A DNA stretch of 23,244 nt, taken from positions 1 through 23,244 of the forward strand of contig CAKKQC010000025.1 in the NCBI GenBank assembly GCA_919901855.1, written 5' to 3'. Below are positions 7,452 to 12,175 of the stretch, piece after piece (the first letter of the stretch is position 1; each line of letters opens with the position of its first letter). The translations under genes and the position numbers were made by a program. The DNA is from a bacterium. GTDB taxonomy: Bacteria; Oederibacteriota; CAKKQC01. The notes under the pieces are model-generated. The model was given only the letters and a program-made list of their open reading frames with translations, made no database searches and was not told the DNA's origin.

Positions 7452-8867
7452 TCAGACGTCGAAATACAGATGGAACTCGTACGGATGCGGCCGGATCCTG
7501 ACCGGATCGACTTCCTTCGACCGCTTGTAGCCGAGCCACATCTCGATCAGGTCCTTGGTGAACACGTCTCCCTTGAGCAGGAACGCGTGGTCCTTCTCCA
7601 GCGCGTCCAGGGACTCGTTCAGCGACCCGCAGACCGTCGGGACCTTCGCCCGCTCGGCCGCGTCGAGGTCGAAGATGTTCTTGTCGAGCGGCTTCCCCGG
7701 ATCGATCTTGTTCTGGACCCCGTCCAGGCCGGCCATGAGCATGGCCGCGAAGCACAGGTACGGGTTGGCGGCCGGATCGGGCGGACGGAACTCGACGCGC
7801 TTGAGCTTCGGCGCGTCCGAGTACATGGGAATCCGGACCGCGGCCGACCGGTTCCGCTGCGAATACGCGAGGTTCACGGGCGCCTCGTACCCCGGCACGA
7901 GCCGCTTGTACGAGTTCGTGGTCGGCGCGGCGAAGGCCAGGAGCGCCTCCGCGTGCTTGAGGAGCCCGCCGATGTACCACTTCGCCGTGTCGGACAGCAT
8001 CGCGTAGCCCTTCGCGTCGAAGAACAGGTTCGTCCCGTCCTTCCAGATGCTCTGGTGCACGTGCATCCCGGAGCCGTTGTCCCCGAACAGGGGCTTGGGC
8101 ATGAACGTCGCGGCCTTGCCGTTCTGGTGCGCGACGTTCTTGACGATGTACTTGTACTTCATCACGTTGTCCGCCATGTGCTTGAGCGGCGCGAACCGCA
8201 TGTCGATCTCGCACTGGCCGGCCGTCGCGACCTCGTGGTGGTGCATCTCGACGTCGATCCCGACCTCCTCGAGCTTGAGCACGATGATCGTGCGCAGGTC
8301 CTGGAGCGCGTCGTGCGGCGGCACCGGGAAGTACCCTTCCTTCATCCGGGGCCGGTACCCGAGGTTCTGCACGCCCGCCTTGCCTGTGTTCCACGAAGCC
8401 TCGTTGGAGTCGAGGTGGTAGTACCCCTCGTGCTCGTTCTGGTCGTAGCGGACGTTGTCGAAGAGGAAGAACTCGAGCTCGGGGCCCATGAACGCCGTGT
8501 CCCCGATTCCCGTGCTCTTGAGGTACGCCTCGGCTTTCGACGCCACGTGCCGCGGGTCGCGGGTGTAGGGCTTCTTCGCGACCGGGTCCCACACGTCGCA
8601 GGTCACCGACAGGGTCGGGATCAGCGCGCAGGGGTCCATGAACGCCGTGTCCGGGTCCGGCTTCAGGATCATGTCCGACTCGTGGATCTCCTGGAAGCCG
8701 CGGATCGACGACCCGTCGAACCCGATGCCCTGCTCGAACATCTTCTCGTCGAACTGGTCACGCGTGATGGTCAGGTGCTGCCACAGCCCGGGCAGGTCGA
8801 CGAACTTCAGGTCGAAGACCTTGGCGTTGTTCCGCTGCCCCAATTCGATCACTTCTTTCGGTGTCAT
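7452..8867 (-). CDS. glnA: Glutamine synthetase type I, with Phe at the adenylylation site
   Basis: 471 residues, the usual length of bacterial GSI. It condenses glutamate, ammonium and ATP to glutamine as a cytoplasmic dodecamer. Family landmarks seen: [11 protein letters not shown] (near residue 50), [10 protein letters not shown], the GSGMHVHQS active-site motif, [16 protein letters not shown] and a C-terminal [13 protein letters not shown]. The start is the ATG at 8867, which has GGAGG 8 nt upstream; an in-frame TTG at 8897 is less likely. In place of the conserved NLYDLP adenylylation loop this protein reads NIFDLD, so the Tyr397 equivalent (residue 399, codon 7673-7671) is TTC/Phe. GlnE-type adenylylation at that position is therefore impossible. 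It starts 27 nt after glnK on the same strand and is the last gene before the hairpin at 7354-7392. Confidence 0.97.
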
Positions 8868-8893: not shown

Positions 8894-9235
8894 TCAACCG
8901 ATCGCGATGCGGCCGGTTTCCCAGGTTCTGATCCGCACGACATCCTTCAGATCGATGATGAAGATCTTGCCGTCGCCGATCTTGCCCGTGTGGGCACCCG
9001 CCGTGATGGCGTCGATAGTGGGCTTGACGAACTCCTCGTTCACGGCGATCTCGATCTTCACCTTCTTGAGGAGGCTGCCCACCTCCTTGGTGCTGCGGTA
9101 GACCTCGGAGACGCCCTTCTGCCGGCCCCGTCCCATGACCTGCGTCACGGTGACCAGGTGGATCTCCTTCTCGGTCAGCCGCTCCAGCACGTCGTCCAGC
9201 TTGTCGGGCTGGATGACCGCCACAATGTACTTCAT
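8894..9235 (-). CDS. glnK: PII nitrogen regulatory protein, lacking Tyr51
   Basis: 113 residues. PII proteins are trimeric sensors of ATP/ADP and 2-oxoglutarate that bind Amt channels, glutamine synthetase regulators and other targets. Conserved blocks: [13 protein letters not shown] before the T-loop, KVKIEIAV after it, and the [11 protein letters not shown] nucleotide-binding signature. The T-loop reads [12 protein letters not shown]. Tyr46 is kept, but residue 51, the tyrosine uridylylated in enteric PII, is Glu. Uridylylation by GlnD at the usual site is therefore not possible. The ATG is preceded by AAGGAGG at ideal spacing. The gene follows amt1 by 17 nt, the classic amt-glnK pairing, so its first job is probably gating that channel. 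The name glnK is chosen from this linkage; glnB would be equally valid by sequence. Confidence 0.95.
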
Positions 9236-9252: not shown

Positions 9253-10488
9253 TCAGTCGATCGCCGTGTAACCGGCTTCGCGATGTTCGGTCAAATCAAG
9301 TCCGATCCTCTGCTCGTCGTCGCTCGCCCGCAGGCCCATCGTCGCGTCCACGGCCTTGAGGAGCACCCAGGACACGACGAACGAATACACCGCCGTCAGG
9401 ACGCCGGCCTTCACCTGGATCCAGGCCTGCCCCGGATTGCCGGCCAGCAGTCCGTCCGCCCCCGCGGCGTTGACGGCCTTGCTGGCCCAGATGCCGGCGG
9501 CCACGATGCCCCACAAGCCGCCGACCCCGTGCACGCCGAACGCATCCAGCGCGTCATCATAGCCCATCCGCGCCTTGAGAACGGCCACGGCCACGTAGCA
9601 GATGGCGCTGGCCCCGATCCCGATCCAGATCGCGGCCAGCGGGGTCACGAATCCGGCCGCCGGGGTCACCGCCGCCAGCCCCGCCACGGCCCCGGTGATG
9701 ACGCCGAGCATGGTCGGGTGGGCGTTGAATCTCCAGTCGAGGAGCAGCCACGCGAGCCCCGCGGCGGCCCCCGACACCTGCGTGGCCACGAACGCGGTGG
9801 TGGCCAGGCCGCCGGAGGTCAGCGCGCTGCCCGCGTTGAACCCGAACCAGCCGAACCACAGGATCCCCGCGCCCAGCACCCCGAACGGCAGGCTGTGCGG
9901 CGGCGAGATCCGGCCCGGGAACCCGACCCGGGGGCCCAGCACGAGCGCGGCGGCCAGGGCCGCGGCGCCGGCGTTGATGTGGACCACGATCCCGCCCGCG
10001 AAATCCAGGGTCCCCGCGAGCCGGAGCTTCCCGCCCGCCCCCCAGACCCAGTGCGCCACCGGGTCGTACACGAGCGTGGACCAGAGCAGGATGAAGACGC
10101 AGAACGCGCCGAACTTCATCCGCTCCGCGAACGCCCCGATGATGAGTGCCGGCGTGATCACGGCGAACATCATCTGGAACACCATGAATGCCTGGTGCGG
10201 GACGGTCGCGGCGTAGTCGGGGTTCGGCTCGACGCCGACCCCCTGAAGCCCCGCCCAGGACAGGCCCCCGATCCAGCCGCCGTGCGTCGGGCCGAAGGCG
10301 AGGGTGTAGCCCCAGAGGACCCATTGCACGGTGATCAGGCACATCGCCGCGAAGCACTGCATCAGCACCGAGAGCACGTTCTTGCGGCGCACGAGGCCGC
10401 CGTAGAAGAACGCGAGCCCGGGCGTCATGAACAACACGAGCGCCGCGCTGGTCAGCAACCAGGCGGTGTCGCCGGAATCAACGTGCAT
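9253..10488 (-). CDS. amtB: Ammonium transporter Amt (copy 1, glnK-linked)
   Basis: 411 residues with the expected eleven membrane segments, and no cleaved signal peptide apparent. It conducts ammonium/ammonia across the inner membrane as a trimer. Key residues are present: Asp162 (LDFAGG), the pore twin histidines His170 (VVHINAG) and His320 (FGVHGVGG), and the pore-gate phenylalanine region [11 protein letters not shown]. The conserved cytosolic tail [13 protein letters not shown], where PII proteins dock in characterised Amts, is intact. The start ATG has GGGGAG upstream. It heads an amt-glnK-glnA transcript with its own promoter (10676-10704) and attenuator-like leader. It is strongly similar along its whole length to the neighbouring amt2, so the two arose by tandem duplication that included the leader. 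Confidence 0.96.
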
Positions 10489-10518: not shown

Positions 10519-10568
10519 AAAAAACAAAACGGCGTCCGCGCAACCGATATCGATTGCGACGAGACGCC
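10519..10568 (-). terminator. Intrinsic terminator in the amt1 leader (attenuator)
   Basis: On the minus strand GGCGTC (10568-10563) pairs with GACGCC (10536-10531), with an inner helix CGCAA/TTGCG, followed directly by GTTTTGTTTTTT. It lies between the promoter and the ribosome binding site of amt1, so termination here would switch the gene off. Its 5' arm overlaps the 3' arm of the hairpin at 10561-10576, so the two folds exclude each other. Confidence 0.85.
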
Positions 10569-10669
10569 GATGTCTCCGGAAGAAGTCGTTTCAGCCTATC
10601 TGGCCAACGGCAATGCTGCGATACGCCTGCGCAGGCTCCCCCGCCGACGACGCCGCCAGGTCCGAGGGC
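10519..10669 (-). ncRNA. Conserved structured leader RNA of amt1 (candidate riboswitch or ANTAR-type attenuator)
   Basis: The predicted transcript leader runs from about 10669. It is homologous and colinear with the amt2 leader (11996-12140): GCCCTCG at the 5' end, CGGCGGGGGA-CCT-CGC, GCCGTT, a hairpin TTGGCC-AGATA-GGCTGA (10588-10604), TCCGGAGACATCG, then the terminator. A second hairpin, GAGAC-ATCGGC-GTCTC (10576-10561), has a six-base loop with A first and G fourth and shares its 3' arm with the terminator. The two leaders differ at paired positions in compensating ways, which supports conserved structure. What it senses is not shown. Nitrogen status through an RNA-binding regulator or a small ligand is the obvious guess. 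Confidence 0.75.
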
Positions 10670-10675
10670 AACCGT

Positions 10676-10704
10676 AGGGTAGCAATCGCGAAGAGCCAAG
10701 TCAA
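10676..10704 (-). promoter_or_regulatory. Promoter of amt1-glnK-glnA
   Basis: -35 TTGACT (10704-10699), 17-nt spacer, -10 TACCCT (10681-10676). It lies within 9 bases of the amt2 stop codon. The spacer shares GCGATTG with the amt2 promoter. The initiation site is expected near 10669. No sigma-54 pair with correct GG/GC spacing was found. Confidence 0.7.
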
Positions 10705-10712
10705 GCTCCATT

Positions 10713-11957
10713 TCAGTCGATCCCCGTGTATCCGGCTTCGCGGTGCTGGGTCAGGTCGAGCCCGATCCGCTCCTCGTCGTCGCTCGCGCGCAGCCCGACC
10801 GTCGCGTCGACGAGCTTGAGAAGCAGCCACGACACCACGAACGAGTACGCGGCGATCAGGAAGGACGCCTTCGCCTGGATCCAGAACTGGCCGGGGTTCC
10901 CGAAGAACAGCCCGTCCGCGCCGGCCGGATTCACGGCCTTCGTGGCCCACAGCCCGGTCGCCAGCGCGCCCCACAGGCCTCCGACCCCGTGGACGCCGAA
11001 GGCGTCGAGGGCGTCGTCGTACCCCCACCGCGCCTTCACCACGGCCACGGCGAGGTAGCAGATGACGCTGGCCCCGATCCCGATCCAGATCGCGCCGGCG
11101 GGGGTCACGTACCCCGAGGCGGGCGTGACGGCCACGAGCCCCGCGACCGCGCCGGTGATGACGCCGAGCATGGTCGGGTGCGCGTTCACGAACCAGTCGA
11201 GAATCAGCCACGCCGTCCCGGCCGCGGCGGCGGCCGCGTGGGTGGCCACGAAGGCCGACGTGGCAAGGCTGCCGGACGCCAGGGCGCTGCCGGCGTTGAA
11301 CCCGAACCAGCCAAACCAGAGCAGCCCCGCGCCCAGGACCCCGAGCGGCAGGCTGTGCGGCGGCGAGATCTTGGCCGGGTATCCGAGCCGGGGGCCGAGC
11401 ACGAGGGCGGCCGCCAAGGCGGCGGCTCCCGCGTTGATGTGCACGACCGTGCCGCCCGCGAAGTCGAGCGCACCCGTGGCCCGGAGCCAGCCGCCGGTCG
11501 CCCAGACCCAGTGCGTGACGGGGTCGTAGACGAGCGTCGACCAGAGCAGCAGGAAGACGCAGAACCCGAAGAACTTCATGCGTTCCGCGAACGCGCCGAT
11601 GATCAGCGCGGGGGTGATGATCGCGAACATCATCTGGAACGCCATGAACGCCTGGTGCGGCACGGTCGCGGCGTAGTCGGGGTTGGGTTGCCCGCCGACG
11701 CCGGCCAGCCCGGCCCATGCGAAAGAGCCGATCCAGCCGCCCCGGGTGGGCCCGAACGCGAGGCTGTAGCCCCAGAGGATCCACTGCATGCTCACTAGGC
11801 ACATGGCCGCGAAGCACTGCATGAGCACCGAGAGCACGTTCTTGCGCCGCACGAGCCCGCCGTAGAAGAAGGCGAGCCCGGGCGTCATCAACAGCACAAG
11901 CGCCGCGCTGGTCAGCAACCAGGCGGTATCCCCCGCATCCACCGTGTGAATCGGCAT
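10713..11957 (-). CDS. amtB: Ammonium transporter Amt (copy 2, upstream paralogue)
   Basis: 414 residues, colinear with amt1 after a 3-residue longer N-terminus and highly similar throughout. The pore residues are conserved: LDFAGG Asp, VVHINAG His and FGVHGVGG His, at positions shifted by 3 from amt1. The C-terminal IGLDLTQHREAGY tail is kept. I use the ATG at 11957 because GGGAG lies 6-7 nt upstream and the sequence from here aligns with amt1. The longer frame to 12014 would read through the leader terminator. It has its own consensus-like promoter and attenuator leader and no adjacent private PII gene; it precedes the amt1-glnK-glnA unit on the same strand. Two channels with parallel control may differ in affinity or in PII binding, but this cannot be told from sequence. 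Confidence 0.95.
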   Translation of the reverse strand: MPIHTVDAGDTAWLLTSAALVLLMTPGLAFFYGGLVRRKNVLSVLMQCFAAMCLVSMQWILWGYSLAFGPTRGGWIGSFAWAGLAGVGGQPNPDYAATVPHQAFMAFQMMFAIITPALIIGAFAERMKFFGFCVFLLLWSTLVYDPVTHWVWATGGWLRATGALDFAGGTVVHINAGAAALAAALVLGPRLGYPAKISPPHSLPLGVLGAGLLWFGWFGFNAGSALASGSLATSAFVATHAAAAAAGTAWLILDWFVNAHPTMLGVITGAVAGLVAVTPASGYVTPAGAIWIGIGASVICYLAVAVVKARWGYDDALDAFGVHGVGGLWGALATGLWATKAVNPAGADGLFFGNPGQFWIQAKASFLIAAYSFVVSWLLLKLVDATVGLRASDDEERIGLDLTQHREAGYTGID

Positions 11958-11995
11958 GACCATCTCCCTGGACCCTAAGCGGGCCCCGCAAACGC

Positions 11996-12039
11996 AAAAA
12001 CGACGCCTCCACAACCCATATGGGGCTGCGAGAGACGTC
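11996..12039 (-). terminator. Intrinsic terminator in the amt2 leader (attenuator)
   Basis: On the minus strand GACGTCTC (12039-12032) pairs with GAGGCGTC (12009-12002), with one G-T wobble. An inner helix CAGCCC/GGGTTG closes the loop, and GTTTTT follows. It lies upstream of the amt2 ribosome binding site and overlaps the alternative hairpin at 12032-12047. Confidence 0.85.
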
Positions 12040-12140
12040 GATGTCTCCGGGAAAACGGTTGTTCAGCTCTTCAAGCTAACGGCTTTGTTGATCCACACCG
12101 GCGAAGGTTCCCCCGCCGGCGACATCGCCTCCGCGAGGGC
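11996..12140 (-). ncRNA. Conserved structured leader RNA of amt2 (candidate riboswitch or ANTAR-type attenuator)
   Basis: Colinear homologue of the amt1 leader. Conserved blocks in order: GCCCTCG at the expected transcript 5' end, GTCGCCGGCGGGGGAACCT, GCCGTT, a hairpin TTAGCT-TGAAG-AGCTGA, CCGGAGACATCG, then a hairpin GAGAC-ATCGAC-GTCTC (12047-12032) that competes with the terminator. Relative to amt1 the first hairpin replaces a C-G pair by T-A and a G-T by A-T, which keeps the pairing. Flanking unpaired blocks are more conserved than the stems, as expected for a ligand- or protein-binding leader. Confidence 0.75.
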
Positions 12141-12146
12141 TGATTG

Positions 12147-12175
12147 AGATTAACAATCGCGGACTCGCCTGTCAA
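12147..12175 (-). promoter_or_regulatory. Promoter of amt2
   Basis: -35 TTGACA (12175-12170), 17-nt spacer, -10 TAATCT (12152-12147): a near-consensus sigma-70-type promoter. It begins 18 bases from the stop of the FMN-binding-like gene. A small palindrome GTTCCCGGGGAAC overlaps the upstream edge and might be an operator or the 3' hairpin of the preceding gene. Confidence 0.8.

Follow-up and report, generated by a model that had tools for sequence, protein, structure and literature searches.

The window, that is, the whole stretch of 23,244 nucleotides analysed here, corresponds to contig C25 in an assembly of 4.68 Mb, and it was compared with a phylum set of 45 genomes, its own included. On the minus strand, two ammonium transporter genes, amt1 (11957-10713) and amt2 (10488-9253), are followed by glnB (9235-8894) and glnA (8867-7452), and both amt genes have upstream leaders, some 150-180 nt long. 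The spacing within amt2-glnB-glnA is tight and a leader of the amt kind was not found between these genes; since glnB and glnA stand close behind amt2 without a similar intervening leader, the amt2 leader probably governs amt2-glnB-glnA. The features of the locus are listed below, P1 and P2 being the upstream and downstream candidate hairpins for an ANTAR protein.

12147-12175, minus strand: amt1 promoter-like site, TTGACA-17-TAATCT, extended TGT (sequence reading; under the consensus-scan threshold)
12091-12140, minus strand: 5' domain of the amt1 leader, GCCCTCG...CGGCGGGGGA... (paralogue conservation, 71% identical)
12078-12090, minus strand: amt1 candidate P1, CAAC-AAAGCC-GTT, A1/G4 hexaloop, 3 bp (aligned-pair test, scan)
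12063-12079, minus strand: amt1 linker hairpin, TTAGCT-TGAAG-AGCTGA, overlapping the P1 3' arm by 2 nt (shuffle test, folding)
12032-12048, minus strand: amt1 P2, putative antiterminator, GGAGAC-ATCGAC-GTCTC(T) (hairpin scan, aligned-pair test)
11996-12040, minus strand: amt1 intrinsic terminator, 5' arm sharing CGAC-GTCTC with P2, tail TTTTT (scan and folding)
10713-11957, minus strand: amt1, ammonium transporter (PF00909 and TIGR00836)
10676-10704, minus strand: amt2 promoter-like site, TTGACT-17-TACCCT, extended TGC (sequence reading; absent from the consensus-scan list)
10619-10669, minus strand: 5' domain of the amt2 leader (paralogue conservation, 71% identical)
10605-10618, minus strand: amt2 candidate P1, CAGC-ATTGCC-GTTG, A1/G4 hexaloop, 4 bp (aligned-pair test, scan)
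10591-10607, minus strand: amt2 linker hairpin, TTGGCC-AGATA-GGCTGA (shuffle test)
10561-10576, minus strand: amt2 P2, GAGAC-ATCGGC-GTCTC (hairpin scan, aligned-pair test)
10519-10569, minus strand: amt2 intrinsic terminator, 5' arm sharing CGGC-GTCTC with P2, tail TTTTGTTTTTT (scan and folding)
9253-10488, minus strand: amt2, ammonium transporter (profile matches as for amt1)
8894-9235, minus strand: glnB/glnK, PII signal protein, adjoining amt2 downstream (PF00543)
7452-8867, minus strand: glnA, glutamine synthetase I, adjoining glnB downstream (PF00120 and TIGR00653)

The initial annotation had placed a sigma-70-type promoter before each amt gene. The -35 elements (TTGACA, TTGACT) are good, and there are 17-nt spacers and extended TGn motifs, but the -10 elements (TAATCT, TACCCT) are poor and neither site appears in a consensus scan; as promoters, both sites are plausible though weak. 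Near the contig end (21928-23198), the window also carries a tRNA-Lys gene (TTT) and, behind it in convergent orientation, the gene of a tyrosine-type phage integrase (22092-23198, minus strand); a tRNA gene with an adjoining convergent integrase is the usual layout of a tRNA-integrated element.

As had been noted at first sight, the two leaders are colinear: they align without large gaps and are about 72% identical, the amt1 and amt2 genes themselves sharing 81% DNA identity. At four-fold degenerate sites the two genes agree in 56% of positions, where composition alone would give 45%, implying that their neutral sites are near saturation. By segment, identity between the leaders is 71% in the 5' domain, 75% in P1, 59% in the linker, 94% in P2 and 50-60% in the terminator. 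Judged from this alignment, the leaders are under constraint that exceeds a chance likeness. The conserved blocks first singled out are present as quoted, but one of them, GCCGTT, described as unpaired, is the site of the P1 hairpin.

The known target RNA of ANTAR proteins consists of two hairpins with six-base loops bearing A at position 1 and G at position 4 (A1/G4 hexaloops), the second of which overlaps a terminator (PMC3369931, PMC8934654). P2 conforms to this rule in both leaders, with a stem of 5-6 bp and an exact A1/G4 hexaloop, as the initial annotation had read it. The folding energies of the terminators are -27.5 and -28.2 kcal/mol (z -6.5 and -5.9); in both, the 5' arm starts inside the P2 loop and takes in the P2 3' arm (CGRC-GTCTC). 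Because it includes that arm, terminator and P2 are predicted to be mutually exclusive, which bears out the attenuation logic proposed earlier. The inner terminator helix has changed in sequence with its pairing kept (GCAGCCC-CATAT-GGGTTGT versus GCAATCG-ATAT-CGGTTGC).

The partner of P2 is less conspicuous. The compensating changes claimed for the hairpin first taken as partner amount to no more than one two-sided and one one-sided change, and the conservation of this hairpin is at chance level, a shared hairpin of at least six pairs arising in 16.5% of column shuffles; it also lies outside the ANTAR rule, as had been recognised, its loops having five bases and no A1/G4. We therefore rejected it as P1. 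What fits instead is a hairpin overlooked until now within the GCCGTT block. At matching positions the two leaders share exactly two A1/G4 hexaloops closed by at least three pairs, P1 and P2, and at least two such aligned hexaloops occur in 0.08% of column shuffles (P=0.0008), the A1/G4 rule having been set beforehand by the literature and the P1 candidate having been spotted by eye before the shuffle test. P1 lies upstream of P2 in both leaders and its stem is weak; RNAfold favours competing folds, the hairpin first described among them, so that P1 is not the minimum-energy fold. The linker between P1 and P2 is 29 nt in amt1 and 28 nt in amt2 and holds the rejected hairpin. This exceeds the 2-25 nt rule, which is a curation range in actinobacteria rather than a mechanistic definition (PMC8164766), and the distance shortens if the internal hairpin folds; its upper pairs, four in amt1 and three in amt2, are compatible with P1, and it may compact the linker. 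Against so long a spacing it also counts that 20 nt added to the linker abolished antitermination by EutV in vitro (PMC8934654).

These features also bear on a variant in which the ANTAR protein would act through P2 alone, a single hexaloop, with no genuine P1 and with the hairpin first described acting as a spacer that has no ANTAR role. EutV does bind single hexaloops, the minimal motif having been redefined as one hexaloop (PMC8934654); P2 is moreover the only strong A1/G4 stem in the leaders, and the 13-14 nt between the spacer hairpin and P2 would be a common linker length. Antitermination by EutV nevertheless requires both hexaloops (PMC8934654), both paralogues retain A1, G4, C5 and C6 of the P1 candidate together with its three pairs, and relatives have clear P1s. 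We consider this variant unlikely; it does not exclude the ANTAR explanation, and the probability given to it is counted inside that explanation.

An ANTAR-domain gene had been proposed as a check, and the genome holds one protein above the Pfam cut-off, a GAF-GAF-ANTAR protein on contig C68 (E=1e-21). Its gene does not lie near the amt genes, and no recognisable nitrogen-assimilation gene was seen by eye in the 12 kb around it. The ANTAR domain aligns to those of Rv1626, EutV and NasR. Of the EutV contacts, mapped by hand on this alignment, K143, M172 and K147 (as R) are kept and R168, R175 and R177 are not; the Q found at 168 is common to this protein and Rv1626. The best NCBIfam matches of the GAF region are partial ones to PtsP and NifA, far under the curated cut-offs; from these and from the nature of the target genes, the GAF domains may sense nitrogen status.

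To gauge specificity, both strands of 1.62 of the 4.68 Mb of the genome were scanned for an A1/G4 hexaloop with at least 5 pairs overlapping a terminator of -18 kcal/mol or lower. Three matches were obtained; two are the amt1 and amt2 leaders and the third is without a P1 candidate. At looser settings about 1.25 matches arise per shuffled 23-kb window, implying that its matches carry information only when stem length, loop, energy and place are weighed as well. A covariance model (R2) built from the P1-to-terminator part, without the 5' domain, recovers both leaders of the genome; the search for homologous leaders that had been suggested gave only weak matches in ten relatives, none convincing (best E 0.0027). 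This best match, in G005, was rejected on reading, since it overlaps a response-regulator gene from start to end.

The architecture recurs in the phylum, where an ANTAR gene was detected in 21 of 40 genomes searched, this one included. ANTAR-type attenuators stand upstream of amt in G001, G003, G009 (three), G022 (two) and G026, all of which have an ANTAR gene, and directly so except in G026 (about 0.9 kb upstream). In G001, of the same family, the second amt is preceded by GCGC-GATGAC-GCGC and GGCGTC-GATGAC-GGCGCC with an overlapping terminator; in the other four the pattern is P1 CCGGC-AANG..-GCCGG and P2 GGAC-NNNGAT-GTCC, again with an overlapping terminator. In four stretches (L134-L137) the scan matches lie solely directly upstream of amt genes, and in G022 and G009 the GAF-GAF-ANTAR gene sits in one cluster with amt and PII genes. 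Among ten P2 loops from six genomes, with pairs counted by script since MAFFT misaligned the G001 P2, position 4, the one base that EutV contacts (PMC8934654), is G in all ten, partly by construction as the scan required G4; seven of the loops have A at position 1, and the second stem pair is seen as A-T, C-G and G-C. These elements resemble the window's in their G4-hexaloop P2, overlapping terminator, place upstream of amt and ANTAR gene in the genome. They differ in their strong GC-rich P1 (CCGGC..GCCGG in four genomes), often with a 9-10-nt ANNG loop, in the absence of a comparable 5' domain, and in their linkers, of 7-20 nt in four genomes and 44 nt in G001, where a hairpin (GGGGTG..CACCCC) can be drawn within.

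Relatives lacking an ANTAR gene gave only scattered, unlike matches, none resembling these leaders. In five ANTAR-bearing genomes (G004, G006, G019, G023, G039) the amt loci that were read lacked an element of this type, so that the link between ANTAR gene and attenuator is not universal. On another detail, the P1 loop in L135, L136, L137 and L174 has 9-10 nt (AAAGAAAAA, AAAGTAAAA and similar) instead of six and still starts ANNG. In L136 (G009:C21, about 11220-11366), two tandem ANTAR-type attenuators precede one amt; their P2 loops, GTTGAT and CTTGAT, have retained G4 and not A1. A few of the named amt relatives from public genomes, L059, L073 and L086 of Negativicutes lineages, have ANTAR-like P2-plus-terminator matches 155-160 nt upstream of amt. 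The deltaproteobacterial L027 carries AGATAC-ATCGTC-GTATCT at about -297 of amt, followed by a terminator-like hairpin and a T-run; its loop is close to the ATCGRC of the window.

The conserved 5' domain lies outside the ANTAR motif. It contains two further aligned G4 hexaloops, GATGTC/GGCGTC and TTCGCC/TGCGCA, which brings the number per aligned leader pair to four (P=0.0026, column shuffles). The leaders might accordingly be two-input elements, in which an ANTAR antiterminator is fused to a separate 5' domain, with the hairpin-bearing linker, that senses some other signal, such as a metabolite or binding at an additional hexaloop; we regard this as distinctly unlikely. Less credible still is a metabolite riboswitch or protein-free attenuator, whose 5' domain (GCCCTCG...CGGCGGGGGA) would be an aptamer for a nitrogen metabolite controlling the choice between P2 and terminator. 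Such an aptamer would account for a domain that stays 71% identical while the paralogues' synonymous sites are nearly random. P2, however, is explained by the ANTAR signature alone; the attenuator leader of G001 shows, on reading, no block like this domain; leader DNA searched against the 45 phylum genomes found itself only, being absent from the other 44, beyond which the R2 model adds only its weak matches; and the leader does not recur in the public genomes of named amt relatives. A comparison with the ANTAR and riboswitch models of Rfam, proposed at the outset, returned nothing: a scan of the window with Rfam 15 at E up to 5 gave no match on the leaders, 5' domain included. This silence is no evidence of novelty, since Rfam is equally silent on the ANTAR-type elements of L134 and L137, the latter a plainer one. 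A conserved aptamer beyond recent paralogues, the mark of a new riboswitch, was not found in these searches of the phylum genomes. A GGGGAACC sequence in the amt1 leader, which we take to be like the core of the c-di-AMP riboswitch, was dropped as a candidate, having no Rfam match and not being kept in amt2 (GGGGAGCC).

Simple constitutive attenuation, or terminators left over from a leader duplication, the A1/G4 loops being coincidental and ANTAR control absent, would suit a genome with only two paralogous leaders, a weak P1 and an unlinked ANTAR gene, but is hardly credible given the joint A1/G4 hexaloops (P=0.0008), their near-uniqueness in 1.62 Mb and the recurrence of the architecture before amt in ANTAR-bearing relatives.

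Against an ANTAR reading count the 3-4 pairs of P1, its competing folds, the 28-29-nt linker and the unlinked ANTAR gene, as do the three EutV contacts that are not conserved and the five ANTAR-bearing relatives without the element. With the hairpins, A1/G4 loops, terminator overlap, ANTAR gene and relatives' elements all present in the DNA, we nonetheless consider it very probable that each leader is a transcription attenuator controlled by an ANTAR protein. The initial annotation had hesitated between a divergent ANTAR target and an undescribed riboswitch or attenuator class: P1 and P2, the GAF-GAF-ANTAR gene and the amt elements of relatives argue for the former, and the latter gives way since the ANTAR rule is obeyed and amt targets are already known from Ramesh et al. 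(PMC3369931).

Under ANTAR control, transcription would start about 80-100 nt ahead of P2. In the default state the terminator would form in the nascent RNA, and the polymerase would stop short of amt1 or, in the other leader, of amt2 and probably of glnB and glnA too. The GAF-GAF-ANTAR protein, presumably activated under nitrogen shortage sensed via its GAF domains, would bind hexaloop P1 as a recruitment step and then P2. P2, once held, would occupy the shared CG(A/G)C-GTCTC segment, blocking the terminator so that the nitrogen genes are transcribed, with likely read-through from amt2 into glnB and glnA.

This scheme parallels EutV/eut of Enterococcus faecalis, NasR/nasF and AmiR/ami, where there are likewise two A1/G4 hexaloops, an intrinsic terminator that has the 3' arm of the second in common with it, downstream nitrogen genes and an ANTAR gene in the genome. 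The window differs in its P1 of 3-4 bp, its 28-29-nt linker with an internal hairpin and its conserved extra 5' domain, and its candidate sensor is GAF-GAF-ANTAR instead of REC-ANTAR or NIT-ANTAR. Ramesh et al. 2012 report ANTAR RNA matches ahead of genes for ammonium transporters, PII and glutamine synthesis (PMC3369931), so that mechanism, RNA signature and target class were already known; those amt leaders, from a different set of genomes, are likened to the window's by description rather than alignment.

With the present leaders, ANTAR antitermination of ammonium uptake, and probably that of PII and glutamine synthetase as well, would reach into a phylum that has been little studied. The likely partner is a one-component GAF-GAF-ANTAR protein, and the regulon looks small. 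The weak P1 and the long, hairpin-bearing linker of the leaders make them a direct test case for how strict the spacing rule of the dual hexaloop is.
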